Source: a virus
Virus record (IMG/VR): IMGVR_UViG_3300035199_001025
Coordinates: 1 to 27,556 of that record
Length of the DNA stretch: 27,556 nt
Reading direction: 5' to 3' (one strand)
In this document: piece after piece, positions 606 through 27,441 of the stretch
How positions within the stretch are numbered: the stretch's first letter is position 1
Layout of the letters: every line of letters begins with the position of its first letter
The notes under the pieces: generated by a model
Databases searched by the model: none
What the model was told of the DNA's origin: nothing
What the model saw: the letters and a program-made list of their open reading frames with translations, nothing else
Translations under genes and position numbers: made by a program

Positions 606-656
606 TTTTGGACCTCCCTTAGAATGAATTTGGTGCGGAGAGTCTCGCTTTGTCGG

Positions 657-1238: not shown

Positions 1239-1290
1239 GACCGGACTACCTTTAAAATGAAATTGATGTAAGGAGCTCTCTGTTCGCACC

Positions 1291-1430: not shown

Positions 1431-1437
1431 CCTCGTC

Positions 1438-2004: not shown

Positions 2005-2056
2005 CGGAGGTCTCCCTTTGGAATGAAATTGATGTAAGGAGCCCTCTGTTTGCAGC

Positions 2057-2620
2057 CTAGAGAGAGATGGTTGCGGCAATACTGCCTGAGGCAGGTATAC
2101 CAACACTCGTGTTAAGCCAATCCCAAGAGGTGTAGCCCGCCGCATTATAGGTACCCGCAGGCGTCGATGCTGAAGCCGCATAGACAGTCACCCCCCCGGC
2201 GACCAGAGAGGTAAACACGGGTACGCCCACCAGGTTGCCCGCGAAGGCAATGCCCCGGGCAGTCACCACACCAAATCCATCCGTCAGAGAGAGTATGGTG
2301 TACCCGTTGAAAGTCGTTGGCGAGATGGCACCAATTGTCGGGCTGAAAGGTGCTGTACGATACCCGTTAATGGTACTCGCGAATTTTCCGGTAGTGCTGA
2401 ATGTCCCACATGTCAGCGTGTAACTCTGGCTGACCGTGTTGGTCGTGCCATAAAAGTCAGCCAGATCGATTGCACCGCTCGTGGGGATGGCTAGGTTCGG
2501 AGTAGTGTTGGGCACATAGGCCCCACCGCGATAATATTCGCTCAGATAGATTGGGTTCGCGCCGCCAAATTCAGCCTGGATCTGCGCCAACGTAATTGTG
2601 CCACTCGCCTGGAGCGCCAC
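2057..2620 (-). CDS. Short phage tail/appendage protein, paralogue 4 of 4 (GTG start)
   Basis: 187 residues. It starts with GTG at 2620-2618. The G of this codon is also the last base of the TAG stop of the upstream S74 tail-fibre gene, so the two are probably translationally coupled. CAGGGAG, inside the end of the upstream gene, serves as ribosome binding site. It carries the shared 58-residue N-terminal module and the C-terminal GNLVG.P.F.SL / TPAGT / W.W / SIAATIS pattern. It is the first of the four tandem copies in transcription order and the one directly linked to the long tail fibres, which supports a tail-tip or appendage role. Confidence 0.8.
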   Translation of the reverse strand: MALQASGTITLAQIQAEFGGANPIYLSEYYRGGAYVPNTTPNLAIPTSGAIDLADFYGTTNTVSQSYTLTCGTFSTTGKFASTINGYRTAPFSPTIGAISPTTFNGYTILSLTDGFGVVTARGIAFAGNLVGVPVFTSLVAGGVTVYAASASTPAGTYNAAGYTSWDWLNTSVGIPASGSIAATISL

Positions 2621-4020: not shown

Positions 4021-4022
4021 GT

Positions 4023-11536: not shown

Positions 11537-12445
11537 TTAGCTCAGGTTCGTGATGAGGGCTGAGCCCTTCTCATTTTTGTGACGGAGCGAGAATTCGCCC
11601 ACAACCATGATGCGGGTGCTGTCACCAATCTTGGCAAGCGTCTCGCGCTGCCAGTTGCGCAGGTAGCACCGTTCCCACATGGACGGATCAAAGATCAGCG
11701 CATCGGTCGCTCGGATGAAGCGGTTGATGACAACTTTCTGCTCACCGTATGGCGAGACATACAGGTCAACAACGTTCACGAGCTTCGTCTTGCCCTGTAG
11801 GTCCCGTGTCCGGCCAGAAGCTGCACCAAAGTCCGCAATGACGCGGGCGTCGCGTGGCTTCACCATGATCACGGTTGCCTCTGAACCCTCGTCATAGAGG
11901 TTTTCATTGGCGTCGAGCAATGCAGTCTCGGTCAGTGGACCAGCCTGATCACCAGCCGTGCCAGCATCAGAGTCGATCGTGATTGTCACGTCTGCATGGA
12001 TCTGGTTTTGAACACCGGCAAACTTACGCGCCGTTGTTTTGTCACCTGCCACCATGGCCTGGCCTGTGCCCACATAGGCATGTTCCAGGTCCCGCTTCAG
12101 CTCTTTGGAGACATTGTGCAGCTGATGCGCAATTTCGCGCGCGCGGCCATATGTGTCCACTTCGTCTGAAGTTGCAGCAACGTCAATCGTGTCAGAGAGG
12201 ATCTGCGTGACGTTTTCTTTCATCTCGGTCGGCGTACGGGCCGTCGAGGCGGCGACAAAGCCTTCGACCTTGGCATTGTCTGCCACGGCGCGAAGATCTT
12301 CTTCCTGCCATTCGATCTTCTTTGCTTTGTGCTTCTTGCCTTTTACGAGCGACGTAAAGGGCGTTTTGGTCGGCGAGATGTTGGAAATAACGTCACTGAC
12401 GTCTTCCTTAATGCCAACCTGTTCATAGGTAGAGAACTGAGTCAT
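11537..12445 (-). CDS. Major capsid protein, SU10 major head protein family
   Basis: 302 residues, the usual size for this HK97-fold family (often annotated DUF5309 or SU10 major head protein). Recognisable blocks are the N-terminal MTQFSTYEQVGIKEDVSDVI, the SPTKTPFTSLV element, EWQEEDLR, the central helix EIAHQLHNVSKELKRDLEHA, RKFAGVQNQI, and the domain with MVKPRDARVIADFGAASGR, LYVSPYGEQKVVINRFI and FDPSMWERCYLRNW. It follows the scaffold gene, as expected for capsid assembly. AAGG lies nine bases before the ATG. No separate protease gene is visible between portal and capsid genes. The long upstream gap holds a chromosomal-type repeat. Confidence 0.88.
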   Translation of the reverse strand: MTQFSTYEQVGIKEDVSDVISNISPTKTPFTSLVKGKKHKAKKIEWQEEDLRAVADNAKVEGFVAASTARTPTEMKENVTQILSDTIDVAATSDEVDTYGRAREIAHQLHNVSKELKRDLEHAYVGTGQAMVAGDKTTARKFAGVQNQIHADVTITIDSDAGTAGDQAGPLTETALLDANENLYDEGSEATVIMVKPRDARVIADFGAASGRTRDLQGKTKLVNVVDLYVSPYGEQKVVINRFIRATDALIFDPSMWERCYLRNWQRETLAKIGDSTRIMVVGEFSLRHKNEKGSALITNLS

Positions 12446-12583: not shown

Positions 12584-13627
12584 CTAGAGGGTCGAGAGGA
12601 AGCCATCCATAATCGCGTCTTCATCCGCACCACCGGATTTCCGGATCCTGGCCAAAGCCTTTGCTTTGGCAGACCGGTTGCCTTGGTCAGATGTCGGGGT
12701 CTGCACCCCTTTGACGACGCGTTTGGGCGCTCTGCCCTTCTTTCTGGCGGTCGCCCCGTTCACAGCCCTTTGACCTTTGTCATAAAGGGCTGCTTTGTGG
12801 ATCATGATGATCGCGGCAGGGTCGGTGATGGTCAAAGCCATTTCACCTGGCATACCGGCGTTCACCGCATAGTCCACAACATCCCGGTAGCGCTCTGGGC
12901 CCCAGTCGGGAATAGCTTGTTTGATCACGGGGAGTGCCGATCTCGCCTGTTCATGCATCTGAGCGTGCTGTTGACCACGAAAGGTCTCCACAGCGCTGCC
13001 GGCCGTCTGCTTGAAATATTCGAGATTATTGTAGGCGGCTTCCGCATCTCTCTTCAGCTGTTCAAACTCAGGTTCGGAGAGATGTTTTGAGGCCTCGAAG
13101 AAATCAATTTGAGAATAGGGTTCCCAGGCTGCTGCGGCATTGCCGAGCATGTCCTTTAAAACCAATCCATTTTGTATCGTCGAGTTCTCTAGGCGTTGTC
13201 GCTCTTGCGCGACTTCTTGAGACTTTTGGGTGAGGGCCTTTTCCTGGCCTGCGAGGCGCTTCAGGTCTTTAACAGATACCCGTTCTTCCACACCGTCCAC
13301 TGTCACCGCCACCTCCAGATCATCTGATGCAAGTTGTGCGTCAGCGTCCGTCATGGGGTCGGCAGCGTCTGGTTCTTGATCGGGGTCTATACCGTCCTGA
13401 TCGTCCTCTTCACCGCGTGCATATTCCGCTTCAAAGGCAGCGGTCTCTTCCTGCCTATAAGCGGCTTCTTCTGCTTCATCATCAGATAGGTTGGCACCGT
13501 CTGTTAGATGAGAAAAGAAGGCATCTTCGACTTCGTCATCTGTTTCCAGATATGTGACGTCGTCCTCCATCGCTTCGACAAATGCCTCGTCCTCATGGAT
13601 AGAGTCGTCTTCGCGTATGTCCATCAT
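12584..13627 (-). CDS. Capsid scaffolding protein
   Basis: 347 residues with the typical scaffold build. There is a very acidic N-terminus (residues 1-105, dense in Asp/Glu). A coiled-coil helix runs at about 118-150 (DLKRLAGQEKALTQKSQEVA). A helical middle follows, then a basic capsid-binding C-terminus (about 288-330, RKKGRAPKRVVKG and SAKAKALARIRKS). It lies immediately before the major capsid gene. It acts in procapsid assembly and is normally lost or degraded on maturation; this is family knowledge, not visible here. Two adjacent ATGs exist (13627 and 13624). Both overlap the stop of the preceding gene, showing coupling. Confidence 0.8.
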   Translation of the reverse strand: MMDIREDDSIHEDEAFVEAMEDDVTYLETDDEVEDAFFSHLTDGANLSDDEAEEAAYRQEETAAFEAEYARGEEDDQDGIDPDQEPDAADPMTDADAQLASDDLEVAVTVDGVEERVSVKDLKRLAGQEKALTQKSQEVAQERQRLENSTIQNGLVLKDMLGNAAAAWEPYSQIDFFEASKHLSEPEFEQLKRDAEAAYNNLEYFKQTAGSAVETFRGQQHAQMHEQARSALPVIKQAIPDWGPERYRDVVDYAVNAGMPGEMALTITDPAAIIMIHKAALYDKGQRAVNGATARKKGRAPKRVVKGVQTPTSDQGNRSAKAKALARIRKSGGADEDAIMDGFLSTL

Positions 13628-13893: not shown

Positions 13894-13950
13894 TCTTTCT
13901 CCTGTAACAAATGAATGTGGTGGGGTTTAGGTGGTCGTGATTGCGCCACA

Positions 13951-13974
13951 CCCTTCAGGATGTTTGCTGAAGGG
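13951..13974. promoter_or_regulatory. Perfect inverted repeat in the divergent promoter gap (candidate operator)
   Basis: CCCTTCAG (13951-13958) and CTGAAGGG (13967-13974) are exact reverse complements separated by eight bases. They lie in the 104 bp gap between the head operon (start 13893, minus) and the TPR/GGDEF operon (plus). The arm length and spacing suit a dimeric repressor operator. A hairpin is also possible, but no T-run follows on either strand. Confidence 0.4.
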
Positions 13975-13997
13975 GCGGAACGCGCTAAGCTCACATC

Positions 13998-15680
13998 GTG
14001 AGTTTAGATAGGGGAACATTTGAAATTATGGTTGGTATATCCAAGCGACATGCGGCTATCGCACTGGCTGGCATCGCCTCTATCGCGATTGTATTTTTCG
14101 CTTTGCAATACAGTTCCGAGAGAGATCCATTTCTCCAAATCTCTTCAGATTGTCGCAAGGCCCCAACATCAACATGTCTGGTGGATTTGGGAGTCGGGCA
14201 GCTTCGTCAGAAAGACAGCACGCTCGATAGCGATCTCAATCTCCCAATCGACTATCTCATCACGATGAACCGGATAGAAGATGCGCAGATACTCATCTTT
14301 CGAAACGCGGTAGAGCGCGGACTCCCGACGGGAAGTGCGGAGGAACAAGCAAACACCCGTGTTGCTTCCGCCCGCCTTGCCCGCTCTATCCGCCAAGGAA
14401 CAAGCCTCGACCAGGCAATGGTGGAGCAGCCCAACATCGACCAGATGGCCCTAAGCATCGCAGCGCAACACCTGGTCGGCCAGACCAGGTTTGGGGCGTT
14501 TCGTGGCCCTGACTATCCAGTGAACGAAAACCTGACCAATCTCGCAAAGCAGATGGCAGCTAAGATTGTGGAAATGGACCCAAATGCGCGTGCTGGACCT
14601 CGGGCCTACTATCTCTCTCTTGCAGCGGGCGTTGAAGTTGTCCTTGGTGACAGAGAAGCTGCAATAAATTACCTGCAACAGATCCCGGGAAGGCAGGAAA
14701 CCATCAACGGCTACTCCAAGGAAATGGTTCGCTCTCTTGGCGCTGAAACAGCCCTGCAATTCATGCGTGACACAGGCACCCCCTCGCCGGAGTTTCTTTT
14801 CATCCTTGCCTCCGTCGAGAAAGACCCAGCCCGTGTGCGCGATCACCTGACCGAGGCTTTTCAGCGCTTCGCTACTGAGTGGACGCGGCCCCATTATCAG
14901 TGGATGGCGGTAACCATCTCTGCGTGTATCGCCTTAAATCAGCGGGAATTGGGCTTGTCACTAGCGCAGCAAACGCAGGATATGGCAAAGGCGGAGGGAG
15001 AAGACCTTCTCTTTTTCGACCACCTTTATGTCATTGACGCCCTTGTGGCCGCAGGAGCACCCATTGATGAAATCCGCGAAAACCTCAACGGCGTGAAGGA
15101 CAAATTGCCTGCTGGTCCCCAAGCCTCTTCCGACCCGAACCCGGTTCCTGGCTACACTTACTGGTTTGAGTCACATCTTGATGGTCAGGCCCGCCGTCAC
15201 ATAGCGCGTATTCATGCAAAGCTCGGCGATGTCGAGGAGGCGAAGAACATCGCATATGGGTTTCCACCCTTCACACACGGCAATCCATCCGCGCTGGTTC
15301 TTTGGCTTGAAAGCCTAGAGCCAGGTGTCTCGGTGGAACATCTCAATCGCCTTTTCGTGGCTGCTCGCGGGGGCCTGTCAGATGCTGATGTAGCCTATGT
15401 GAAGGCACGCATGGCGTCCCTCATCATCGCGCATTCTCGCAACGAACCCGCGCGGGAATGGGCAATGAAAGCGGCGACGGACCTTTTGGCCGAGCCCCTG
15501 ATGGCAGGGGCCAATGCGGCAAATGCCTATGGAGAACTTGTTGAGCTTGCAACACACGCCGAAGACCTTGCGATAAGACAGATCGCCATCGACAGGCTCA
15601 CAGCGGCTGCTTTTCACTCACGGGATGGACAAGATCTCATCCGGGCGGGGTTTGAGCACAACCGTCAGGACAATAGCTAG
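13998..15680 (+). CDS. Membrane-anchored TPR-like helical-repeat protein, first gene of cargo operon
   Basis: 560 residues from a GTG at 13998. A shorter form from ATG 14028 (MVGISKRHAA, 550 residues) is at least as likely, with AGGGGAA some way upstream. One N-terminal membrane segment (AAIALAGIASIAIVFFAL) follows positive residues, predicting a short cytoplasmic tail and a periplasmic body. The body is made of TPR-like helix pairs. Examples are GDREAAINYLQQIPGRQ, IALNQRELGLSLAQQTQDMA, HIARIHAKLGDVEEAKNIAY and WAMKAATDLLAEPLM. A Cys pair (DCRKAPTSTC) follows the anchor. There is no enzyme motif. It is oriented against all phage structural genes and lies 42 bp before the GGDEF gene. A sensor or scaffold role is inference. 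I do not recognise a named family. Confidence 0.75.
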   Translation: MSLDRGTFEIMVGISKRHAAIALAGIASIAIVFFALQYSSERDPFLQISSDCRKAPTSTCLVDLGVGQLRQKDSTLDSDLNLPIDYLITMNRIEDAQILIFRNAVERGLPTGSAEEQANTRVASARLARSIRQGTSLDQAMVEQPNIDQMALSIAAQHLVGQTRFGAFRGPDYPVNENLTNLAKQMAAKIVEMDPNARAGPRAYYLSLAAGVEVVLGDREAAINYLQQIPGRQETINGYSKEMVRSLGAETALQFMRDTGTPSPEFLFILASVEKDPARVRDHLTEAFQRFATEWTRPHYQWMAVTISACIALNQRELGLSLAQQTQDMAKAEGEDLLFFDHLYVIDALVAAGAPIDEIRENLNGVKDKLPAGPQASSDPNPVPGYTYWFESHLDGQARRHIARIHAKLGDVEEAKNIAYGFPPFTHGNPSALVLWLESLEPGVSVEHLNRLFVAARGGLSDADVAYVKARMASLIIAHSRNEPAREWAMKAATDLLAEPLMAGANAANAYGELVELATHAEDLAIRQIAIDRLTAAAFHSRDGQDLIRAGFEHNRQDNS

Positions 15681-15722
15681 GGCGCTATTTCTCCCAGCAC
15701 CGATGCTAGCCGACGCGGCAGC

Positions 15723-18125
15723 TTGCAACTATTGCCTGACTGGGAAAACAGACTTGCACAAGCCCTCCTAAAAGGTACTGTGGAATACTCATTTTATGGA
15801 AGTATTCGTATGAATTTAGCCAGATTTGATTGCGTCATAAAAGAACTTGATGGCGATGAAACTCTAATTTCTTCGACAGAAGGGTGGCAGGTGTTTCGCC
15901 TCTTTAAGGGCACGTGGCTCCCACTGGAAGGTGATCCTTTAGTTGATCCGATGACTACTCTAAATCTGAAGAAGTGTCTGGATAATACTGCTTTTTGGAA
16001 GCACCCAAAGTCTAAACAAGCGTTCTTCTCCTTACCTGGGTTTGATGCCGTTCTAGTCGCGCAGTTTGACAAAAACCCCCGTAGCCAAACGAGAAGACGC
16101 ATCGAAAAATGCATCGAATCTTGTCTCTCCGTAGGAGAGAATACGTTCAAGGCAAATTTCAACGAACTGACGAGCCAGTTGAAACGGGAACCTTTTGACA
16201 AGCTTTTGGAGGAGACGATAGCGGGATTCATAACAGACAGGCAAAAATCCCGTGAAGAGGAATCTGGCTCAATCCAGCAAGACAGTAAATCTTCGCCACC
16301 TGCATTAGTTGCATTCGATTTGGATCACTTCAAGCAGGTGAATGATACATTCGGGCATCAATACGGTGACCTCGTATTGCAAGCTTTGGCGAAACGCGTT
16401 GACGAGCTATGTTCAGACTACAACACGAAATGGGCCGATGTATCTCGCGTCACTCCCGCTCATCCGAGCGGTGAAGAGTTCATGATTTTAATCTCTGGCA
16501 AAGTCGGCGGCGAAGCGGTCGAGGAGTTTTCCCAGAACCTAAAAGGCATAATATCGCAGGACCCACTACCCAATAACAATGAGTGGGAAGAGATGTCCGA
16601 AAAGAGAGTTCCAAAAGGAACTCCGCTACCTGACCACTCCCAGCGGGCAATCACCGTTAGTATTGGATATGCTTTTGTTCGAAATGACATTCCAGATGGC
16701 GAAGTTAGTGGCGAGACAAAGGCTATTAAGGATAGAGCTGACATCGCTGTTTACACAGCAAAAAATGCAGGGCGTAATTGTGTCGTGCCTTTTGCAAACA
16801 TCGTCCGTGATTTTGGTCAAGTTCTAGAACACCAAACATCAGCAGGTGTCGTTGCGATCGACATCGGAAAGAAAGTCGGGGTGCAAATTGGCCAAGAATT
16901 CATCGTGCGCCATCCACTTTTCACCGGGGACCGACCATTTATCTCCGGGGACGGTAGGTCGCAAAAACGCCTGGGCATGTACCCAAAAAGAGCCTTGGCA
17001 AGCATTGTAGTTTTCGCTGTGGAACCAGAAGTATCTTTTTGCATTCTATCAGGAGAGCGAAAAGACATCGATATCCCCGTCGGTGCAAAGCTCGAGGCTC
17101 TTACACTTGGGAACATCGCTCACCTCGTGGACGAGGCCTTGGGGACACCAAACCGAAATTCGCAAGACCGCTCCGAAATAGAAAACTTTCTGGCAGATCG
17201 CACATCCGATAACCGAGCCTGTGGCGCCGTCATCGAACTAACGAATTCAGAATCTCTTTCCAACGATTATGGGCAAGGCTATGTAAATAGGCTGCTGGCC
17301 GAAATATTCGAAATTCTCAGGAATGAACTTCGAGGAGCAATCGTCGAACACATCCCCCCTACAGAGTTTGGGGTTGCATGGGGTAGTGAAAGTTCTTCAT
17401 CCGAAGCCTACAACTTCATTGATATCGTAGAGAAAATCTCCAACAGAAGCCAAGGAAAAGCTAAAATCAGAGTTGGCGTCTTCGATCCAAAAATTCTACT
17501 TGAAGGTATTGCGAATAATCCCGACACTGAATTTACGCCATCTGGCGATGGGCGCGGAGCAGTGAAACTAGCGCGTCTGGCACGTGACGAAGCAGCCCAA
17601 GCCGATAAAAATGTCAGATACTTTTCCCGAGATACAGCTCTTGCGGTCCTTGTGTTTTCTCGACAATCGGAAGACTTCACCAAATCTGAAACTGATTATG
17701 CCGTGGTGACGGAATTTGGTTCTGTAGGCGGCTGGGTCGAAAATCAACTTGCCCTAATCCGCTACGAACAAGACCTTTGGGACTCCGCAAGGGAAGCAAT
17801 TGATCGAGCACGCGAAAAACTGCCGGATGATTCTGTTGTTATCCTAAATTCCGCGAGTATCTACAATGAGCAAGAAGATAATGATGGAATGGTATCGGAG
17901 TTGATTGCCCTTGGAGAACTGGAGGGGGATGCCAATATTCCTTCGGTTTACGGGGAAGATTTGGTTCCCAAAATCTGCATGCTTGTTCGCAACGGGATGG
18001 ACCCACAAAAAATTCCGGGAGATGTGCTCAAGACAATGCTGAACCAGTATCTAAAACAACCAGAAGACCACAAAACCGAGGCCGTATCAGCCTTAGCCCA
18101 GGCTTTGCTAATTGACCCACAATAG
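15723..18125 (+). CDS. GGDEF (SGEEF) diguanylate cyclase-like protein with degenerate second cyclase-like domain and TPR tail
   Basis: 800 residues from TTG 15723. ATG 15810 has the clearest ribosome binding site (GGAAG, seven bases before), and GTG 15780 is also possible. No membrane segment. The unknown N-terminal region spans 1-190. A GGDEF domain (about 194-355) has FDLDHFKQVND (metal Asp199, Asn207), GHQYGDLVLQALAKRV, signature SGEEF (249-253), VSIGYA and ADIAVYTAKNAGRN. No RxxD inhibitory site precedes the signature. A beta-rich domain (about 372-462: AIDIGKKVGVQIGQEFIV, PVGAKLEAL) recalls FlgT C-terminal-like folds. Residues 498-640 mirror the cyclase layout without its catalytic motif (PPTEF instead of GGDEF). 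The end (670-800) is TPR-like. It looks more AT-rich than the preceding gene. c-di-GMP or another nucleotide product is inferred. Confidence 0.8.
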   Translation: MQLLPDWENRLAQALLKGTVEYSFYGSIRMNLARFDCVIKELDGDETLISSTEGWQVFRLFKGTWLPLEGDPLVDPMTTLNLKKCLDNTAFWKHPKSKQAFFSLPGFDAVLVAQFDKNPRSQTRRRIEKCIESCLSVGENTFKANFNELTSQLKREPFDKLLEETIAGFITDRQKSREEESGSIQQDSKSSPPALVAFDLDHFKQVNDTFGHQYGDLVLQALAKRVDELCSDYNTKWADVSRVTPAHPSGEEFMILISGKVGGEAVEEFSQNLKGIISQDPLPNNNEWEEMSEKRVPKGTPLPDHSQRAITVSIGYAFVRNDIPDGEVSGETKAIKDRADIAVYTAKNAGRNCVVPFANIVRDFGQVLEHQTSAGVVAIDIGKKVGVQIGQEFIVRHPLFTGDRPFISGDGRSQKRLGMYPKRALASIVVFAVEPEVSFCILSGERKDIDIPVGAKLEALTLGNIAHLVDEALGTPNRNSQDRSEIENFLADRTSDNRACGAVIELTNSESLSNDYGQGYVNRLLAEIFEILRNELRGAIVEHIPPTEFGVAWGSESSSSEAYNFIDIVEKISNRSQGKAKIRVGVFDPKILLEGIANNPDTEFTPSGDGRGAVKLARLARDEAAQADKNVRYFSRDTALAVLVFSRQSEDFTKSETDYAVVTEFGSVGGWVENQLALIRYEQDLWDSAREAIDRAREKLPDDSVVILNSASIYNEQEDNDGMVSELIALGELEGDANIPSVYGEDLVPKICMLVRNGMDPQKIPGDVLKTMLNQYLKQPEDHKTEAVSALAQALLIDPQ

Positions 18126-18165
18126 CTATCACCACCGCCAGTGTATCCGAACGGCTGCCATAACT

Positions 18166-18192
18166 GTGAGCAGCCCAAGGACGTTCGCTCAC
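18166..18192. terminator. Weak hairpin between convergent genes
   Basis: GTGAGC and GCTCAC form a 6 bp stem with a 15-base loop in the 69 bp gap between the GGDEF gene (plus) and the 143-residue gene (minus). There is no clear T-run. It may be a bidirectional stop, at low confidence. Confidence 0.25.
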
Positions 18193-18194
18193 GG

Positions 18195-18626
18195 TCACTG
18201 TCCGCTCAGTTGGCGGAAAACCCTTGTGAAAAAGCCCGGGCGGTTTTTGTAGGCTTCATGGCGCAAGCGCCAATAGGCTACCAGCTCATCGGTGTCTAGT
18301 TCCTGAATGTCGGCTGAGCGAACATCGCCGCGTGCGAAAGCATCAGCCATAGAGCATTCCAAAGCATACTCAAGATACGTCCTTGCAAGGTCAGGGCGTT
18401 TTGCGGCTCCGGATTTGGGTGCGATCTCCGTCTTTTGTGTATCTTCCGGACTGACCAGTTCCCAAAAGGTGCCGTCTGGCTGCACCAGAATGTAGATCTC
18501 GTCGACGAACCAGGGCTCCAGATAGAGCTCAGCCGCTGCGACATTCTCAAAGACCTCAACATCATGGGGAAAATCCCGGTCCGGATCGTAGTTTTGATTC
18601 AGAATGAGAATGTCATCCCGTGTCAT
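18195..18626 (-). CDS. Immunity-like protein, last gene of the toxin-like cassette
   Basis: 143 residues. The segment VEVFENVAAAELYLEPWFVD, then EIYILVQPDGTFWELVS, resembles a pattern found in many immunity proteins of polymorphic toxin systems: an acidic helix with AE.YLE, then a two-strand unit around DG. The C-terminal half is helical, with YLEYALECSMADAF and ELDTDELVAYWRLRHEAYKN. No enzyme motif or signal peptide. It is six bases downstream of the 216-residue gene on the same strand and third in a tight cassette after the putative toxin. The immunity role is inferred from the pattern and gene order, not from a confirmed family match. Confidence 0.6.
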   Translation of the reverse strand: MTRDDILILNQNYDPDRDFPHDVEVFENVAAAELYLEPWFVDEIYILVQPDGTFWELVSPEDTQKTEIAPKSGAAKRPDLARTYLEYALECSMADAFARGDVRSADIQELDTDELVAYWRLRHEAYKNRPGFFTRVFRQLSGQ

Positions 18627-18632
18627 GAAAAC

Positions 18633-19283
18633 TCAATCCGAGAGAATGGAAAATGAGAGCGTGTGGATCTTTGTGATCGTCTGGTCGTATGCATAATACA
18701 CATCCGGCGTTTCTCGCCCAGCCCGCCTGCGCCACCAGCTGGTCATGCCTTTTGTCATTTTCAACGTGCGAGCGGGCGATGTTTCTGGCAGCATTTTGAG
18801 AGACACCTCAAAGCCTTCACCAGTCTCTGACATGGTTCGAAGTTTCTCCAACAATGCATCCCGAGCTTTCAAATTGATATCAAGTGTGACGGATGGTTCG
18901 TCGTGGAAGTTCTTCATCACCGCGCCTGGGGCTTCAACGGGGATATCCTGCTGAACTGCGCCAAAGAATGTGTGACCGTCTTCCGAGCGAAGCTCTTCTT
19001 CTTCATAATAGTCCCAGATAAAGAAGCAAACGGAGTACACCGCTGTGTATTTAGGGTCGGTCCGCTCCTTTGTCAGATACCAACCCTCAGCGAGCCTTCT
19101 ACCAAAGTCCAAATAGTTCCCGCCCATTGGTTCCGGCAACAGATCGGGCAACTCCTCAATAAAGTGTGACAAAGCTTTCTTACTGAAGGCCATTTTGAAG
19201 GTTGCCCCTTCTGCACTGCCCAGCTCTGATGTCAGAACTTCAGCGGTAACAGGACCACCAGGATTGCGTTCCGCTCGCAGCAT
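18633..19283 (-). CDS. Uncharacterised protein, middle gene of the toxin-like cassette
   Basis: 216 residues, soluble, mixed alpha/beta. Notable segments are FIEELPDLLPEPMGGNYLDF, AVYSVCFFIWDYYEEEELRS and LPETSPARTLKMTKGMTSWW. I recognise no family. The ATG at 19283 is one base after the TAA of the 334-residue gene. It has GAGGAAG as ribosome binding site inside that gene's end, so the two are coupled. Tight coupling to a putative toxin and a further immunity-like gene makes an immunity or accessory role plausible. A virion component cannot be excluded, given the position between portal and scaffold. Confidence 0.6.
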   Translation of the reverse strand: MLRAERNPGGPVTAEVLTSELGSAEGATFKMAFSKKALSHFIEELPDLLPEPMGGNYLDFGRRLAEGWYLTKERTDPKYTAVYSVCFFIWDYYEEEELRSEDGHTFFGAVQQDIPVEAPGAVMKNFHDEPSVTLDINLKARDALLEKLRTMSETGEGFEVSLKMLPETSPARTLKMTKGMTSWWRRRAGRETPDVYYAYDQTITKIHTLSFSILSD

Positions 19284-19284
19284 T

Positions 19285-20289
19285 TTATCTTCCTCGGGGT
19301 GGGTAATTCAAAGGTACATCAGGTGCCCATCCAGTTGACAGGTTACGCACTTTTGCGGGCGTTCGAAACAGTCTTCTGGTCGTGCCCGGGCGGTGAAAAC
19401 CCAAATGAGAACCTTTGGGCTCGTCATGCATCAAGTCCAGATTGACACTCCGCCTGTTGGCAGGATTGACATAATTCCCAATGGGAAACCCATGCTCGTC
19501 GTAGCGTAGAGGACCAGGCCGCGTCCTAAACTCATAACCGGCATCGGTAAGTCTCTGGATAATCTGATCACGATCTTTTCCGACAAAGGGGTTTGCGCCA
19601 AGGGACTTTCGATTTCTAAAACTGTCATAGCGGAACCTGGCTTCATTCAACGCCCGCCTCGGATCTTTACCCATTTTGGCAAGGGGGTAGGCTTCCAGAA
19701 ACTCGTCCACGCCGCGACCAAATTGCCTTGCATCCCCCACTGCCCTTGAGATTTTCGGGTTGGAAGCAACAAAATCAAAGGCATTACTCATGGCGTTATC
19801 GAGGGTGTTTCTTCCCGCCGGACTCACAGCGTATCTTGTGAGAGCGACCCCTCCTTTGGCCAAAGCGGTCGCGCCAGAAATGGCTTCCACTGGCCCGATC
19901 GACTCCTCGATCGCATCGATCCTGGGGTCGTTCTGTGCTCTCGCCCAATAGGCCTCATGGTCTGCCCGGTTCAGCGCGTCCTGTTCTGGCGAGATCAGGA
20001 AGGCCGGGTTCATGTTCTGGTCGCGGGGGTCAAACACTGGTGGCGGTGGCAGGTTGAGTGACTGCTGATAAGCCAACAGGTTTTGTTGATCCTGGGCCGG
20101 GTTGGCGAAGGGGGATTGCAGCGGTGGCAGACTGCCGCCACCACCATTTTGGACTCCAGGATGGGTTGCCCCTTGTTGACGCAGCAGGGTTTCAGCCCTT
20201 TGCATCTGGTCAAACAGAGACAGGTCCTGTTGCGGGCTTGGTCCGCGCAGAGTAGCTGTTTGGGGAGCAGCTTCTGGAGAAGAGTTCAT
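19285..20289 (-). CDS. Putative polymorphic-toxin-like or virion-associated effector protein
   Basis: 334 residues from ATG 20289, chosen because AAAGGGGGAG lies just upstream. The in-frame ATG at 20304 lacks such a site. Residues 1-100 are Gln/Pro-rich and disordered-looking (GGGGSLPPLQSPF, LNLPPPPVFDPRD). Residues 130-156 are Ala/Gly-rich and hydrophobic (AISGATALAKGGVALTRYAV). The C-terminal domain, from about 215, is basic with many His/Asp/Asn/Arg (KDRDQIIQRLTDAGYEFRTR, YDEHGFPIGNYVNP, NLDLMHDEPKGSHLGFHR). This three-part build with a compact, polar, nuclease-like C-terminus and two coupled small downstream genes resembles a polymorphic toxin cassette. I cannot assign the toxin family or the catalytic residues. 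Alternatively, it is an internal virion protein next to the portal gene. Confidence 0.55.
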   Translation of the reverse strand: MNSSPEAAPQTATLRGPSPQQDLSLFDQMQRAETLLRQQGATHPGVQNGGGGSLPPLQSPFANPAQDQQNLLAYQQSLNLPPPPVFDPRDQNMNPAFLISPEQDALNRADHEAYWARAQNDPRIDAIEESIGPVEAISGATALAKGGVALTRYAVSPAGRNTLDNAMSNAFDFVASNPKISRAVGDARQFGRGVDEFLEAYPLAKMGKDPRRALNEARFRYDSFRNRKSLGANPFVGKDRDQIIQRLTDAGYEFRTRPGPLRYDEHGFPIGNYVNPANRRSVNLDLMHDEPKGSHLGFHRPGTTRRLFRTPAKVRNLSTGWAPDVPLNYPPRGR

Positions 20290-20368
20290 CGCTCCCCCTT
20301 TCATTTAGAGTGCGGCACTTTTTGACAGTGTAAGAGTGGCTCAGGAATGACCCGACAGGCGCGATGGA

Positions 20369-20415
20369 CGAGAGGCCCAATGGATCCCGCATCAAGTGCG
20401 GGATGACAGCAGAGG
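20369..20415. repeat. 47 bp direct repeat with palindrome, copy 1
   Basis: It begins CGAGAGGCCCAATGGATCCC and is identical over 47 bases to 20578-20624. The core ATCCCGCA-TCAAG-TGCGGGAT is a perfect 8 bp inverted repeat with a five-base loop. This is the look of a REP-type intergenic element. Confidence 0.8.
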
Positions 20416-20523
20416 GTGGATCTACCGCTCCTATGAGGAATGGCACGGCTGTTCGGCCTGTTAACCTCTGTTAGCTTTTTGTCTGCGTTTTGGCCTCTGC
20501 ATTTCTTCCAAACAAAAGCTGTC

Positions 20524-20556
20524 ACCCCGGACGCCAAGACATTGGCGAGCCGGGGT
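20524..20556. repeat. Nested REP-like palindrome
   Basis: ACCCCGG (20524-20530) pairs with CCGGGGT (20550-20556), and inside it GCCAA (20533-20537) pairs with TTGGC (20542-20546). The flank CTTCCAAACAAAAGCTGTCA (from 20505) recurs with one change before the palindrome at 24363, so both are members of one repeat family. Confidence 0.65.
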
Positions 20557-20577
20557 CCATTCTGAAGCTGAACTATT

Positions 20578-20624
20578 CGAGAGGCCCAATGGATCCCGCA
20601 TCAAGTGCGGGATGACAGCAGAGG
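20578..20624. repeat. 47 bp direct repeat with palindrome, copy 2
   Basis: Identical to 20369-20415. It ends seven bases before the portal stop codon triplet, so it lies right at the portal gene's 3' edge. Confidence 0.8.
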
Positions 20625-20630
20625 TATGCC

Positions 20631-22658
20631 TCACCCGTTGGGCGAAACCACAAAGCGCAGGTTCTCTTCCGGCGTCTGAAGACCCAGTGCCATTTCTTCG
20701 CGCGCAATGGCGTAGGAATTATCCGCCTTTTCCTGTTCCAGGTCGTGCTTGTCCGCACGAAGCGCATGGTCGGCCTCGGCGGTCGCCCGCTTCAGCGCAA
20801 GCTCTGCCTGCCAGGACTGTTCGCGGAACGCATGTTCGCGCTCCTTCAGGTCCAGTTCGCGTTCGCGAAGCTCGATCTGTTTTGCCATGACCTGCTTTTG
20901 CATTTCGGTTTCCGGGTTGGGGCCGCGCGGTTTCACATTGCGCGGGTTCTCGATATAGGTATCGATGTCCTCAATCTCGGTTGCCTGGGCCATGCGGCGC
21001 ACGGTCTCATAGCGCTTGTTCATGGGATAAAGAGACTTCAGTTCAGGGTCACTCGTCAGGAACTGATCCAGCGCCATATATTTCTGAACTTCCTTGTCCT
21101 TCTCGCCATAACCCAAATTGAACTCAACAGAGGCGTCTTTGCGGGCCTTCCACGTGGTGGGGTTTACCTCCACCCAATTATTGGCCACCTCAAACACCTG
21201 TTCGCCAGAGAAGTTCTCCAGCGTCAGCTCATAAATACGCAGGAACATTTTGCGCAGGAACATCTGAGCGAAGTTCCGGGCAATTACCTTCTGGCGTACC
21301 TGCGAAACATTGATGAGATTCTCCACCATGCCGGCAGAGTTCTGCGAAGACAGCGCGTCCTTGTTCAGCCCCTGTGACAGGCGGCTAATGCCTGTTGTCT
21401 CTTCCTTATCGTCATCCAGCATTGCAACGGTCTGGAAGACAAACGGGTTGAGGCTTGCCTGGATCAAGGGCGCAATCGCGTCCTGGCGCTTAATGTTGAC
21501 GATGCCGCCAATGCGATTTTCCATCAGCTCGCGCGGATTGGCAAGTCCGCCATTCAAGACCGTGTAGCGCGGATTGTTGGTAATCATCGCATGGTCAATG
21601 ATGGAGCGTGTCAGCAGGGTACGCGCGTTCTGGGTTGGGAACACCCGCTTAGCGTAAGAACTACCCCAGAAACGGTGCGGCACCGGAAGCGGCGCCCAGT
21701 CGATGAAGGGGGTGCGTTCGACTTCTTCTTTGTCGAGAATGTGCCCGCCAGAATAGAACAACTTACAAAGCTTCGCCCGGCCATCATTATTGATGTCAAT
21801 CTGGGTGTAGCACTCATAGATGGTATATTTGCGGGTCGCTTCCTGCATGGAGTCTGAGAGATCAGTGGAGGTGGAATAGCCCTCGCCTGTATCTTCGTGG
21901 CGGGCGTCGCGCAGCTCCTCATCATAGTAGGAGGTTTCATCCGCTGCGGTAAGCAGAGCAAGCTTTGCTTCCTCGATCCCCATGTCGCGCAATTCGCTTT
22001 TGGACTTCAGACACCGCTGCCAGGTGATGTCGGCACTCTCAATGGAGACAGCGCGTTCAGAAATACCAAAGTCCTCATTGGGAATAATCTCAATATTGAT
22101 CTTGTCGTTCTTGCGCTTCACCCGCACCGTGCCGGAATATAGCCCTGTGGCTTCGTCCAGCTCAACATCCAGCTCTCTTACCTTTTCATTGGCATAAAGC
22201 TGTTCAATGGCTTCGGTCGGCAGGCCTTCAATTTCGTGTTCTTCTTCTTCGCATTCCTGCTCGTACCAGACTTTCGCAACACCATTGCGGAACATCAGGC
22301 CATTGTGAACAGCGTCACGAATAATGTGGAAGCCGTCATTCATGCGGTGGAACACATATTGGCTCCACTCGCTGGCAATGCGGGCTGCTTCTACATCGTC
22401 TGCATTTTCCGGTTTGAAATAGGCCCCGCGCTTGTGGGCTGAGAAGGTTTCCAATATCTGGGCCTTCATGCTTTCAACCGCGTCAAACACGTCTTGAGAC
22501 ACATATTTGGAATTGCCCTTATGAAGGGGCTTCGGGCTTTCTCCATCATAGAAGCGTTGGGTCTCTGCCCGTTCGCGTTCCAGTGTGTTGTCCCGCAACC
22601 CACTTGTAAGGTCCAGCCGGCTTTTCACCAGGGCTGCAATATCCTCATCACGGAGCAT
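20631..22658 (-). CDS. Portal protein, SU10-like podovirus type
   Basis: About 675 residues from ATG 22658 (MLRDEDIAALVKSRLDLTSG), four bases after the TerL stop. A longer form from ATG 22688 would overlap TerL and adds ten residues. Portal features are RAETQRFYDGE near the start, KYVSQDVFDAVESMKAQILE and DAVHNGLMFRNGVAKVWYE. Further on are PFIDWAPLPVPHRFWGSSYA, RTLLTRSIIDHAMITNNPRY, the NPFVFQTVAMLDDDKEETTG/LSQGLN stretch and QVRQKVIARNFAQMFLRKMF. The C-terminal roughly 70 residues are a strongly charged coiled coil (KQIELRERELDLKEREHAF). It forms the dodecameric DNA channel at the capsid vertex and docks TerL. It is coupled to terL. Confidence 0.88.
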   Translation of the reverse strand: MLRDEDIAALVKSRLDLTSGLRDNTLERERAETQRFYDGESPKPLHKGNSKYVSQDVFDAVESMKAQILETFSAHKRGAYFKPENADDVEAARIASEWSQYVFHRMNDGFHIIRDAVHNGLMFRNGVAKVWYEQECEEEEHEIEGLPTEAIEQLYANEKVRELDVELDEATGLYSGTVRVKRKNDKINIEIIPNEDFGISERAVSIESADITWQRCLKSKSELRDMGIEEAKLALLTAADETSYYDEELRDARHEDTGEGYSTSTDLSDSMQEATRKYTIYECYTQIDINNDGRAKLCKLFYSGGHILDKEEVERTPFIDWAPLPVPHRFWGSSYAKRVFPTQNARTLLTRSIIDHAMITNNPRYTVLNGGLANPRELMENRIGGIVNIKRQDAIAPLIQASLNPFVFQTVAMLDDDKEETTGISRLSQGLNKDALSSQNSAGMVENLINVSQVRQKVIARNFAQMFLRKMFLRIYELTLENFSGEQVFEVANNWVEVNPTTWKARKDASVEFNLGYGEKDKEVQKYMALDQFLTSDPELKSLYPMNKRYETVRRMAQATEIEDIDTYIENPRNVKPRGPNPETEMQKQVMAKQIELRERELDLKEREHAFREQSWQAELALKRATAEADHALRADKHDLEQEKADNSYAIAREEMALGLQTPEENLRFVVSPNG

Positions 22659-22662
22659 CTTT

Positions 22663-24252
22663 TTAGACCTGCTCGACATACCATTCATCCATGTTTGTTA
22701 TTGGCTCGACATAGCCTTCGTTGATGTGATTGGCGAGAGCCAACGCGATAACGGTGTCGTCGTGACATGCCGCGTCTGCCTCCATACGTCCCTCTTCGGT
22801 GACGATGTAGGTCATCAGTTCTCGAATTGTTGTTTCATCATCAAGCGCAATCTCCTCTTCGCGCAAACTGGCGCGGAGCTCGTCAATGATCAAAGGTTTG
22901 GTTTTTACGTTCACGGAGAAACCAAGCTTCACCGTTTCCTGCTGGGTCAGTCGGTCTATCTGCATTTCGGTATAGAAATTGGGATAGCCCAAATCCTTGC
23001 CCAGGCGGGAACATGTGAGGATGCCGTGATTATTGCTCTCCACAATGATCCGCGCTTCATTATAGAGGTGGCCCAGCGCATTCAACACTTGAGCAAAATA
23101 GTCCGGGTGCACGTGGGCACGGTAGGTGGCGACAACGCGCTTGCGACTGTCCATCACTTGGGCAACGGAATAGTCACCGCCGCGCACCCCCATCGCCACA
23201 TCTGCGCCAATGTAATAGGTCTCAGCGGGGTCATGCTCTGCGTAACAAGCCAGATCGCCGCGAATGTCTTTTTCAAAGGCAAAGCCCCCTGCCTCACTAC
23301 CCACCAGCGCCATGCGGGTGAGCGGTGCTTTGCGGGCTTCCATCTTGGTCACCAGGCGCTCTGGGATAAACACCGGGCGGCCGGTCGTCAGAAACGCTTC
23401 ATCGGGCATGGTGGGATATTCCTGTCTTGTCAGGTCCAGACCGTTCAAGGCAATCTTGTTGCGTCGCCACACCAATTGCTCCTGGTCGAGCCCGTATTTT
23501 TCAACAAGCAGGCTTTCTTCCGGCGCCACTTCAATGCCGGCATCTGGCACTTGCGTTCGATATTCGTCGCTCATGTACCAGGGAATGAAGACCGGCAAAA
23601 AACCGTTCGTGCCTTCCACCGCCCCTTTCCAGATATTGTAAAAGAGGCCGGCCACGCCGTTGGCTGTGCTTTCAATAAAGATGGATGTGCCCGGCGCATT
23701 GGGCACGGCCTGCTCCAGCCCGTTCCAATTGTCAGCGGCCTGGTTTGGTTTCCAGAAAGCCAGTTCTGAGACATGCAGGTCTGTCAGGGTTTCCCCGCGG
23801 CCCACACTGTCCCCGCCCGATGTCGCAACAATGTAAGAACTGTCGAGCCCCGCCAATGACAATTCCCGGCGGGAGGAATATTTGGACTGGGGCTTCAAGA
23901 CATCAGGCAGATTTTCATAATAGCGTTTGGTCATATCAAACAGCGCTCGGGTGCTGTCTGCATGGTGGGTAATCACCATGGCCCGGCGGGCTTTCTGCTG
24001 AGCCACACGCCAGATCATCCGGCCGCCTACATAGGTGGACATGCCCTGCTGGCGGCCTTTCAAAATGATGACGCGGATCTTACCCGTCTTCGCCTGCTGT
24101 TTTTCAATCGCGGCGTGCAGTTTGAGCTGGGCATCGTTGAAGCGCAGCTTCTCAAACGTGCCGGCCTTGGTTCGAATTTGAAGCGCGTGTTCAGCGTAAT
24201 AGCGATAGTCATCGCGCAGGCGCTTGCGGACCGCAAACAAGCGATCATCCAT
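22663..24252 (-). CDS. terL: Terminase large subunit (packaging ATPase and nuclease)
   Basis: 529 residues from ATG 24252 (MDDRLFAVRK), with AGGAG eight bases upstream. The upstream open frame to 24483 is non-coding repeat DNA. The ATPase has a terminase-type Walker A, GRQQGMST (66-73), and Walker B, LTDLHVSELAFW with catalytic Glu163, followed by the ESTANG coupling motif (194-199). The RNase H-like nuclease has its acidic residues in YYIGADVAMG (Asp351), RIIVESNNHG (Glu405) and CHDDTVIALA (Asp498/499). It packages DNA into proheads by docking on the portal, whose gene follows at once. No small terminase subunit gene is recognisable in the window. Confidence 0.93.
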   Translation of the reverse strand: MDDRLFAVRKRLRDDYRYYAEHALQIRTKAGTFEKLRFNDAQLKLHAAIEKQQAKTGKIRVIILKGRQQGMSTYVGGRMIWRVAQQKARRAMVITHHADSTRALFDMTKRYYENLPDVLKPQSKYSSRRELSLAGLDSSYIVATSGGDSVGRGETLTDLHVSELAFWKPNQAADNWNGLEQAVPNAPGTSIFIESTANGVAGLFYNIWKGAVEGTNGFLPVFIPWYMSDEYRTQVPDAGIEVAPEESLLVEKYGLDQEQLVWRRNKIALNGLDLTRQEYPTMPDEAFLTTGRPVFIPERLVTKMEARKAPLTRMALVGSEAGGFAFEKDIRGDLACYAEHDPAETYYIGADVAMGVRGGDYSVAQVMDSRKRVVATYRAHVHPDYFAQVLNALGHLYNEARIIVESNNHGILTCSRLGKDLGYPNFYTEMQIDRLTQQETVKLGFSVNVKTKPLIIDELRASLREEEIALDDETTIRELMTYIVTEEGRMEADAACHDDTVIALALANHINEGYVEPITNMDEWYVEQV

Positions 24253-24342
24253 GGACGTCTCCTTGTTTGTGGGGATGGTGTGGGTGCGAATGAGGCGAGC
24301 AGCGCCAGGGTGCGTCGCCCTTCGGCTCGTCACGCAAGCGTA

Positions 24343-24440
24343 CTTCCAAACAGAAGCTGTCACCCCGGATTCAGTCCGGGGTCTATCCTGCCTATGAGAG
24401 TGACGAAAGAGCCTATGTATCCCGCATCCAATGCGTCTAG
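24343..24440. repeat. REP-like repeat cluster, degenerate relative of the portal-side cluster
   Basis: CTTCCAAACAGAAGCTGTCA (24343) matches 20505 with one difference. Then CCCCGGA-TTCAG-TCCGGGG (24363-24381) is a perfect 7 bp palindrome. GCCTATGTATCCCGCATCCA near 24411 is a decayed version of the 47 bp repeat core. The order of the parts is the same as at 20505-20624. Confidence 0.6.
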
Positions 24441-24506
24441 TTACAACAGCACGTTCACCTTGAATTTTCTCTGCATTTTGCATATGTAGAAACTGAAGCT
24501 CTGTTC

Positions 24507-24549: not shown

Positions 24550-24761
24550 GCTCCCTGCCCTTGGCACTCGGTTCCTGGCGTACGCAGGAGGTGGATGAGG
24601 GGTTTCTCCGGTTGCAGCGTACCGACTAGCTGTATTGGGGGTCGCGCTCCCCTTCAGGGCTTCATTCCTTTTCTCAATGTGAGTTGGGATTAGGGCGGAC
24701 ATTTCCGCAGCCTGTTCGACACTCCAAGCTCTTATCACTCGGTTCTTCGAAAGGTTCGTTC

Positions 24762-25178
24762 GTGTTCAACTTCTTAAAAAAATTCTTCTCGTTTGAGCCT
24801 CGCAGGCACCGGCCATACACCCCTCTCCCGGGACAATATCTTTGTGTGTCTCCGAGAAACTGCGACGAGGATGATCCAGAAGGATGCTTTCAAGGCTATG
24901 ATGGTCTCAGGACGGAAAATCAAGAACCTGTTATGTCAAGTGAATTTCTCATCAGTGAAGAGCTCACTGCACAGTTCCGCGTATGGAGCAGAGACGTTCT
25001 TAAGTTTGAAGACGACCACGTAGATCCTGATAATCCTGACTGGTCAGTTCTTGAAACTGCTGACTATTCAGCACTTGACCAACGCGGGTTAGAACTCGCA
25101 CAGGCACTCAAGCGGGAACTCCCCCATTGCGAGGTTCACTATGGGTCCTCACAAAACGAAGACCATATTTGCAATTAG
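24762..25178 (+). CDS. Immunity-like protein, single-module paralogue (GTG start)
   Basis: 138 residues from GTG 24762 (FNFLKKFFSFEPR). AAAGG lies seven bases upstream, and the whole leader is repeated before the next gene. The amphipathic N-terminus precedes one module at about 57-130: LISEELTAQFRVWSRDVLKF, then PDW, SALDQRGLELAQALKRELPH and EVHYGS. The pattern of a Trp helix, then G.ELA..L..EL, then V.Y is one I associate with small acidic hypothetical proteins often next to toxin genes. Immunity is an inference; no toxin partner lies in the immediate vicinity. The next gene, 47 bp downstream, is a longer paralogue. Confidence 0.65.
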   Translation: MFNFLKKFFSFEPRRHRPYTPLPGQYLCVSPRNCDEDDPEGCFQGYDGLRTENQEPVMSSEFLISEELTAQFRVWSRDVLKFEDDHVDPDNPDWSVLETADYSALDQRGLELAQALKRELPHCEVHYGSSQNEDHICN

Positions 25179-25225
25179 TCGTCTTTTAGAATTTTTCCAC
25201 TGTCAGCTCTTCGAAAGGTTCGTTC

Positions 25226-25978
25226 GTGTTCAACTTCCTCAAAAAGCTCTTCTCGTTTGAGCCCCGCAAGCAACTGCCCTACAGGGACGTTCTCTCAGGA
25301 AAATACCTTCGTGTAACGATGTTGTGGTGCTTGGGCGATGATCCGAAAGGGCTACGCCGAGGCTGTGATGGTATCTGCAGCGACTATGAAAGCCCTGTCA
25401 TGACAAATGCCATTCCCATCAGTGAGGAGCTCACTACAGAATTTCGCAAATGGCGAGGAGACGTTCTTGAGTTCAAAGACGATTGCGTAGATTCTGATAA
25501 CCCTGACTGGTCAGTTCTTGACACCGCTGATTGGTCAGCACTTGAACAACGAGGACTGGAACTCGCACAAACTCTGCAGCGCGAACTCCCTCATTTCGAC
25601 GTTAAATATCGTTCGCGGGAAACGGAGCACGCCCTTGCTATAACGAGTTTTGTGATGTGGGTCTCACCGGAATATTGCTATGCCGATGATGATCGCGGCA
25701 CTGGTGCAGACGGGCCTGTGGATGGGATTTGTGCCGATGCTGGTGGCTTCATCCCCACGCGGGCATTACCCATTAGCGATGAGCTTTCTGAGAAATTCCA
25801 TGCATGGAAAATGGACGTCGTAAAGTTAAGGGAAAGCACAGATTCTGAGACTGCTGATTGGTCAGCGCTTGATCAACGGGGGTTGGAGCTCGCAAAAGCA
25901 CTAAAGCGTGAACTTCCCCATGAGGATGTTCGGTATGAGTCTTCACAGGATAAGGTTCATATCTTTGAGCACCACTAA
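25226..25978 (+). CDS. Immunity-like protein, two-module paralogue (GTG start)
   Basis: 250 residues from GTG 25226, with the same ribosome binding site and leader as the preceding gene. It contains the module twice. The first is at about 63-128 (IPISEELTTEFRKWRGDVLE, DWSALEQRGLELAQTLQREL). The second is at about 181-239 (LPISDELSEKFHAWKMDVVK, DWSALDQRGLELAKALKREL). The first half matches the whole 138-residue paralogue. The second half lacks the FNFLKK amphipathic start, so it arose by internal duplication or fusion. There is no catalytic motif. It is probably a cytoplasmic binding protein; a two-headed immunity or anti-toxin protein is possible but unproven. Confidence 0.65.
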   Translation: MFNFLKKLFSFEPRKQLPYRDVLSGKYLRVTMLWCLGDDPKGLRRGCDGICSDYESPVMTNAIPISEELTTEFRKWRGDVLEFKDDCVDSDNPDWSVLDTADWSALEQRGLELAQTLQRELPHFDVKYRSRETEHALAITSFVMWVSPEYCYADDDRGTGADGPVDGICADAGGFIPTRALPISDELSEKFHAWKMDVVKLRESTDSETADWSALDQRGLELAKALKRELPHEDVRYESSQDKVHIFEHH

Positions 25979-26349: not shown

Positions 26350-27318
26350 TCACTTTTTTGGAAACCGTTGCAGGCGAGAAACTCGCTCAATCACACTCCT
26401 AGCCAGCTTCTTTCTGTCCTTTCCATGGTGCAATTCCCGATGACAGTTGGGACATGCTGCAATGGCATTTGCAATGGTATCAGGCCCACCTTCCGCCAAT
26501 GGACGAACGTGATGTACTTCCAGGAATGGTCTTCCATCCTCTCTCGCAAATGGTGCGTTCGTGACGCACACTTCACACGCACCATCTGCTGTGTCCAAAA
26601 CCCAGGCTGTAACTTCCGGGTCGCGGACAAATCGCGCTGAAGTTGAGCTCACTCTCTCAACATTCTTGGTACCTGTTGGGGGGACTTTCCTGTTGGAGGA
26701 TTCCTTTGAACGCGCTGAAGAAACTCGCGCCTCAAACGCTTCTGGGTCAGCAGTAGGAGACTCTCTTTGCCCCTCCCGTCCCCAGACTTCGTTAATCAGA
26801 AAAATTAGGGTCTCTTTTGCAGAACCAATGTTCCGAAGTGGCTTGTACCCGTCGAGGGTTTCAAGCCCGAGGTCAATCAGAACAGACGAAATGTTCTGCA
26901 TGCGAAACTCGTAGGCTCCGTCATTTCTGCCGCTTAACTCGAATTCACGAACCCGCCGACGTACTTCTGTCTTATTTGCTTCTTCTCCTCGCCTTTCCAT
27001 CCCAAGCAACTCAAAGTAAGCAACGACACATGCGCGAAGTTCTTCACTTGACCACTTCTCTCCGGAGCGATCTTCCTTTTGTCGGGTGAACCTAACAACC
27101 CGTTCTCCCTGATGCAATTTGGCTGAAAATCCATTGTCCATCCATTGCCGACGACGGGTCAGATGATGATTTTTTACATTTGCCCAGAACTGAAGGGTCA
27201 TTGCCTCGGGAGGAAGCTTTCCGACCAGCTTTTCCAACTGGCTCCATGAAAGGTTTACCTCATCATCAACCGTTGCTCTTAGAAATTCTCCTAAGGGATC
27301 ATACTTTAAGCCAGCCAT
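26350..27318 (-). CDS. McrA-like HNH restriction endonuclease
   Basis: 322 residues from ATG 27318 (MAGLKYDPLG), with AAGGG eight bases upstream. A GTG at 27336 is less likely. The N-terminal domain (about 5-80: YDPLGEFLRA, LSWSQLEKLVGKLPPEA, WMDNGF) is of a type often joined to restriction nucleases. The middle domain (about 88-165: KWSSEELRACVVAYFELLGM, NISSVLIDLGLETLDGYKP) is also typical of HNH enzymes. The C-terminal HNH has CEVC (248-251), EVHHVRPLAEGG, Asn284, CPNCH (289-293) and HH (297-298), so the zinc Cys and catalytic His are intact. Likely a stand-alone nuclease against modified or foreign DNA; no methylase adjoins it. Repeats flank it, suggesting transfer. Confidence 0.8.
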   Translation of the reverse strand: MAGLKYDPLGEFLRATVDDEVNLSWSQLEKLVGKLPPEAMTLQFWANVKNHHLTRRRQWMDNGFSAKLHQGERVVRFTRQKEDRSGEKWSSEELRACVVAYFELLGMERRGEEANKTEVRRRVREFELSGRNDGAYEFRMQNISSVLIDLGLETLDGYKPLRNIGSAKETLIFLINEVWGREGQRESPTADPEAFEARVSSARSKESSNRKVPPTGTKNVERVSSTSARFVRDPEVTAWVLDTADGACEVCVTNAPFAREDGRPFLEVHHVRPLAEGGPDTIANAIAACPNCHRELHHGKDRKKLARSVIERVSRLQRFPKK

Positions 27319-27441
27319 ACCGTACCCTTCGTTCACCCGTTACGCATCACCTGGACTTGGGCCTTAGCGACACCGACAGGCACAAGGACCGTCAGAAAGG
27401 AAAGACAGCCTCGTACGGACATTGAGATAAAACCGTCAGCC

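Follow-up and report, generated by a model that had tools for sequence, protein, structure and literature searches.

Probable diguanylate cyclase gene and a Rhodobacterales-type membrane protein gene in one cargo site of a phage with an SU10-type portal

Introduction

Diguanylate cyclases, which form cyclic dimeric GMP (c-di-GMP), are recognised by the GGDEF domain, and some of them depart from the standard signature. ECA3270 of Pectobacterium atrosepticum is active with SGDEF, and the functional motif has been proposed to be (G/S/A)G(D/E)EF (PMC3974145). CdgB of Azospirillum, which has SGDEF and no RxxD site, was proposed to be free of product inhibition (PMC9683572). In phage defence, Panoptes joins a membrane effector of two membrane segments to a GGDEF-like polymerase, and this synthase is an mCpol with the GGDEF motif nearly absent (PMC12657218). 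Among phages, alphaproteobacterial temperate phages linked to a group that includes the Kuraviruses have been described (PMC10386132). Here we analysed two genes, encoding proteins of 560 and 800 residues, in the virus record IMGVR_UViG_3300035199_001025 of IMG/VR, which is taken complete (27,556 bases) and called the window below. An earlier note on this DNA had suggested that the two genes could form one signalling or defence system inside a phage head operon. They are best read as separate passengers, independently acquired into a larger cargo block, and the 800-residue protein is probably a diguanylate cyclase.

The cargo block in the head operon

According to Pfam, the window encodes SU10-type portal, major capsid and adaptor proteins, and PHROGs adds a scaffold protein and a large terminase (Table 1). 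Among the records listed, no isolated phage has a portal protein more than about 28% identical to that of the window, and 12 viral contigs carry a portal protein at 38–46% identity. In the families of portal, capsid, adaptor and scaffold proteins and in gene order, the window is like the SU10-like (Kuravirus-type) podoviruses, but it differs from them by a 6.7 kb cargo between the portal gene and the gene that precedes the scaffold gene. The phage is an SU10-like podovirus, probably alphaproteobacterial and temperate, and this lifestyle is suggested by the link of the published alphaproteobacterial temperate phages to the Kuravirus group (PMC10386132).

In nine related phage contigs, a gene for 81–91 residues comes directly after the portal gene and the scaffold gene stands next, with no cargo between them. 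Portal and scaffold matches are separated by 564–647 bases in these contigs, and the capsid gene comes next after the scaffold gene in those that are long enough. The small head-operon gene of the window, whose product is 37% identical to the counterpart in contig L101, is the same as in the relatives but stands 6.7 kb from the portal gene with five genes between, and the cargo block is thus delimited at 13894–20630. Extra genes between conserved phage genes, missing in all nine relatives, are what is expected of a moron or cargo region.

The two large plus-strand genes amid minus-strand head genes were confirmed at 13998–18125, and both are real genes. However, the two-gene cargo of the earlier note was drawn too small, as the block holds three more genes, all on the minus strand and none of them present at the corresponding site of the nine related phages. 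Its reading as a moron with its own orientation is supported in part.

Table 1. Coordinates of the cargo block, its flanking head genes and the domains of the 800-residue protein (positions in the window)
Feature	Position	Strand	Remark
Capsid gene	11537-12445	-	Head operon, scaffold-side flank of the two genes
Scaffold gene	12584-13627	-	Head operon, flank of the two genes
Small head-operon gene, 89 residues	13624-13893	-	Far edge of cargo site; directly after portal in relatives
Gene of 560-residue single-pass protein	13998-15680	+	Open reading frame; homologues in Rhodobacterales
Gene of 800-residue cytoplasmic GGDEF protein	15723-18125	+	Open reading frame; Pfam GGDEF, NCBIfam TIGR00254 E=4.5e-19
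N-terminal region, about residues 1-181	15723-16265	+	No Pfam match, no credible PDB match, no viral relative
Catalytic-type GGDEF domain, residues 183-352	16270-16778	+	FDLDHFKQVND 198-208, GD 215-216, KWAD 236-239, SGEEF 249-253
Second, degenerate GGDEF domain (probable), about residues 481-666	17163-17720	+	PPTEF replaces GGDEF
TPR-like C-terminal helical segment, about residues 677-704	17751-17834	+	TPR_2 E=0.021, TPR_14 E=0.053, below Pfam cut-offs
Cargo gene, 143 residues	18195-18626	-	No Pfam or PHROGs family
Cargo gene, 216 residues	18633-19283	-	No Pfam or PHROGs family
Cargo gene, 339 residues	19285-20304	-	No Pfam or PHROGs family
Two identical 47-nucleotide copies with palindrome (ATCCCGCATCAAGTGCGGGAT)	20369-20624	.	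Between cargo genes and portal gene
SU10-type portal gene	20631-22688	-	Near edge of cargo site; Pfam SU10_portal E=4.2e-162
Large terminase gene	22663-24483	-	Portal-side flank

The 800-residue GGDEF protein

The GGDEF domain that had been noticed in this protein is clear (Pfam E=1e-17; 64.8 bits against a curated cut-off of 23.8). In alignment with solved cyclases, FDLDHFKQVND and GD keep the metal- and guanine-binding residues. The signature reads SGEEF where GG(D/E)EF is standard, and KWAD stands at the usual position of the RxxD inhibitory site. Because the canonical RxxD is missing, product feedback is probably absent. In comparison with the diguanylate cyclases of the PleD/WspR type (PF00990), DxDHFKxxND, GD and the G(D/E)EF hairpin are kept, whereas SGEEF, an insertion in a loop, the lack of RxxD, a probable second, degenerate GGDEF region, an N-terminal region of no recognised family and carriage by a phage set the protein of the window apart. 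It shares the serine at the first motif position with ECA3270 and CdgB, and with CdgB also the absence of RxxD, but has SGEEF instead of SGDEF, other accessory domains and no EAL domain. We regard it as a probable diguanylate cyclase.

A second GGDEF domain, degenerate, is probable further downstream. The sole genome matches of this region are the GGDEF domains of a PAS-GGDEF and a receiver-GGDEF protein; the comparison of the region with the GGDEF profile was not significant in a shuffle test, and neither was the test for internal duplication within the protein, so the domain is graded as probable on its genome matches. An AlphaFold model of the C-terminal 440 residues, which contain a segment like tetratricopeptide repeats (TPR), was built without relatives, reached a predicted local distance difference test score (pLDDT) of 34 and was not used. 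The start of the gene is uncertain: no ribosome-binding site is visible ahead of TTG 15723, GTG 15780 or ATG 15810 are possible, and the latter is preceded by GGAAG and would give 771 residues.

Matches to the protein were found in 10 of 50,697 phage records, only around the GGDEF domain and with the remainder uncovered. Outside this domain, no relatives were detected in viral contigs, phages, plasmids or the sampled Alphaproteobacteria, Rhodobacterales and Gammaproteobacteria. Two weak matches in Gammaproteobacteria are GGDEF domains of other proteins and were rejected as relatives. A scan of genome contigs gave no full-length relative among the matches listed, and this is not a clean negative because matches to the common DHFKQVND motif dominated the scan. 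The domain architecture thus appears nowhere else in the searched collections. A different protein of about 597 residues, encoded in viral contigs L092, L094 and L095, has a GGDEF domain close to the C-terminus and, as judged by eye, a FIST-like sensor at the N-terminus.

The 560-residue membrane-anchored protein

We searched 393 Rhodobacterales genomes for homologues of the 560-residue protein. The direct search found them in 5 genomes (26–32% identity) and a three-member profile found the family in 8, at chromosomal loci in every case. Since true homologues exist, the open reading frame is a gene and not a chance frame. Judged from this distribution, the family is a sporadic chromosomal family of Rhodobacterales, and no relatives were found in the phages, plasmids and viral contigs searched. 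In alignment A1, members G539 and G438 share 29–32% identity over about 510–540 residues with the window protein, as well as the same ending and an invariant cysteine pair; unlike it, they are chromosomal and have no GGDEF neighbour, while the window copy is a phage gene beside a GGDEF gene. By eye, the family stands among ATP synthase genes in one context (L115) and near an OmpA-like and a LysR-like gene in another (L114). Decayed copies are present among the eight loci, for example with a split frame (G551), an internal stop (G568), stops (G507) or as short remnants (G422).

The protein has one N-terminal hydrophobic segment (Kyte-Doolittle value 2.29 at residue 18), which is preceded by K-R-H, and the cysteines C42 and C50 just past it are invariant in 3 of 3 aligned members. 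By the positive-inside rule, these features suggest an N-in signal anchor and an oxidising compartment behind it, and the helical body is predicted to lie in the periplasm. The earlier description as a single-pass membrane protein agrees with the one segment found, but its TPR-like repeats reduce to matches below the curated cut-offs (TPR-S E=0.017, 16.1 vs 27.6 bits; TPR_8 E=0.023, 15.3 vs 25.7 bits). The structural model is all-helical, with 28 helices and a mean pLDDT of 50, and Foldseek returned mainly helical-repeat proteins for it, none under an E of 0.001. A helical-repeat fold is weakly supported by this model. An alternative start at ATG 14028, read from the sequence, would give 550 residues.

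The two genes share a frame with a single stop between them. Readthrough of this TAG was considered and rejected: the homologues of the first protein stop where it does, so the TAG is native.

The two genes outside this phage

The analysis covered 17–19 kb around each of the eight Rhodobacterales loci. No GGDEF gene was found near the 560-residue family at any of them (0 of 8) with the GGDEF profile and the 800-residue query, while the same search detected the window's own GGDEF gene. The two genes also differ in composition: the guanine-cytosine (GC) content is 55.0% in the 560-residue gene and 47.2% in the 800-residue gene (0.57 vs 0.45 at third codon positions), compared with about 54–56% in the head genes. 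Moreover, the predicted compartments differ, with the helical body of the first protein in the periplasm and the second protein in the cytoplasm. Neither protein matches a PADLOC model.

No second case of the two genes together was found, and they are never paired elsewhere within the genomes searched (about 400 Rhodobacterales, 385 Alphaproteobacteria and 274 Gammaproteobacteria genomes, some overlapping). A rare pairing could be missed, as this sampling is limited and the genome-contig scan was swamped. With no pairing at the eight loci, no PADLOC match and different compartments, the paired signalling or defence system of the earlier note is unsupported. Its nucleotide signal survives in the 800-residue protein as a probable c-di-GMP enzyme, but the membrane protein as the paired component does not.

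Proposed function and alternative explanations

The explanation that we favour, with middling confidence, is that each of the two genes is a moron acquired on its own, that both stand in one cargo site between the portal and pre-scaffold genes, and that the 800-residue protein is a diguanylate cyclase acting on the host. The 560-residue gene would be a captured member of the Rhodobacterales chromosomal family, and its product may be anchored in the inner membrane with periplasmic helical repeats that probably bind another envelope protein. In the 800-residue protein, the first GGDEF domain (SGEEF) would condense two GTP to c-di-GMP once the protein dimerises, and the degenerate second domain, the N-terminal region and the TPR-like C-terminus may serve in sensing or docking. 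Expression in the infected cell or lysogen would raise c-di-GMP and lead to a sessile state or a changed host surface, and the 560-residue protein would work separately in the envelope. An effect on host motility or biofilm, which had been suggested before, stays open as an option, since both genes are cargo with their own orientation and one encodes a probable c-di-GMP enzyme.

Several points weigh against this explanation. An integrase or attachment site was not identified in the 27.6 kb fragment, and lysogeny is therefore unproven. Sigma-70-like promoter matches are no more frequent than by chance, and the two genes have none ahead of them on their strand, so that a promoter of their own, which the earlier note named as common for such cargo, cannot be shown; terminator matches are scattered across the cargo region. 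In the GGDEF domain, there is an unusual insertion and the motif stands in an HPSGEEF context; in another cyclase, VCA0965, serine introduced at the first motif position abolished activity (PMC3974145). Finally, the genes share a strand with 42 bp between them, a layout that agrees with co-transcription and leaves room for a functional link missed by the sampling.

Part of this evidence also bears on the view that both genes are near-functionless passengers in transit, the GGDEF protein being weak or dead catalytically and the 560-residue gene a drifting copy. The divergence of SGEEF and KWAD from consensus, the loss of activity in VCA0965 and the decay of the 560-residue family at several of its eight host loci are consistent with it. 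However, neither reading frame is interrupted over its 560 or 800 codons and the catalytic residues are kept apart from the first glycine, and we consider this view rather unlikely.

We find it improbable that the two genes are an anti-phage defence, with a nucleotide signal from the GGDEF protein and the membrane TPR-like protein as its sensor or effector. Their adjacency on the same strand would suit such a system, as would a probable restriction-type HNH gene on the same contig, and Panoptes (mCpol OptS and OptE) has the same two-gene plan of a GGDEF-fold polymerase and a membrane protein. The window has a true GGDEF-family domain with SGEEF and not mCpol, its 560-residue partner has one segment followed by an all-helical part and neither a beta-strand-rich ligand domain with two membrane segments nor a beta-barrel, and the genes are not paired in the genomes searched. 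The two genes are not Panoptes. A CD-NTase synthase, as in the cyclic-oligonucleotide-based antiphage signalling system (CBASS), was found in neither protein by Pfam or PADLOC. Besides the missing co-occurrence and PADLOC match, the candidate effector has no evident cytoplasmic ligand-binding domain, given its single membrane segment and predicted periplasmic body, and the guanine-binding GGDEF domain points to c-di-GMP, which in bacteria is also a housekeeping signal.

A joint action, in which a double-GGDEF enzyme with a sensory N-terminus raises c-di-GMP during infection or lysogeny and together with the periplasmic repeat protein remodels the envelope and so excludes other phages, is improbable in our judgement. 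There is also little to recommend the GGDEF protein as a c-di-GMP regulator of the phage itself, controlling lysis-lysogeny or head-gene expression and not host behaviour: the gene lies inside the head operon and is transcribed against it, but no related phage has it and a DNA-binding domain was not found by Pfam. An assembly artefact that joined host DNA to phage DNA, as the unique block and the host-like repeats at one edge might suggest, is very improbable, since the phage gene order continues as expected to either side of the block, whose ends fall exactly between two genes that are neighbours in the relatives.

Other genes of the phage

Within the cargo block, no relatives of the 339-residue protein were found in the phages, plasmids and viral contigs searched. 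Its C-terminal stretch (NPFVGKDRDQII...GNYVNPANRRSVNLDLMHDEPKGSHLGFHRPG) looks by eye like polymorphic-toxin C-terminal domains, a resemblance that no library or collection match backs, and the 216- and 143-residue genes after it could be its immunity genes. In a search for the host, the 47-nucleotide repeat had near-matches in 2 of 240 alphaproteobacterial genomes, both from one family, and these two genomes have no relatives of the 560- and 800-residue proteins.

Outside the block, two neighbouring fibre genes of like build, with a collagen repeat and an S74 chaperone (2620–5384, minus strand), are probably a duplicated host-recognition gene. Beside them, four consecutive genes (42–2620, minus strand) all match phrog_30374, a phage family of undescribed role, and form a tandemly expanded gene family. 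Two adjoining genes by the terminase gene (24684–25978, plus strand) are mutually 59% identical over 134 residues, the second holding one more copy of the shared domain, and this duplicated family is possibly immunity-like. The HNH endonuclease at 26350–27336 (minus strand) has an N-terminal DUF7662, and its middle part matches the phage-defence candidate PDC-S36 (E=1.4e-21) and type IV restriction models (E=2.3e-31).

Significance

For the SU10-like group, the gap between portal and scaffold genes appears able to take up several unrelated genes, of host as well as unknown kind. If the favoured explanation is true, a phage cyclase with a probable degenerate second GGDEF domain would give the phage direct control of the sessile or motile state of its host.

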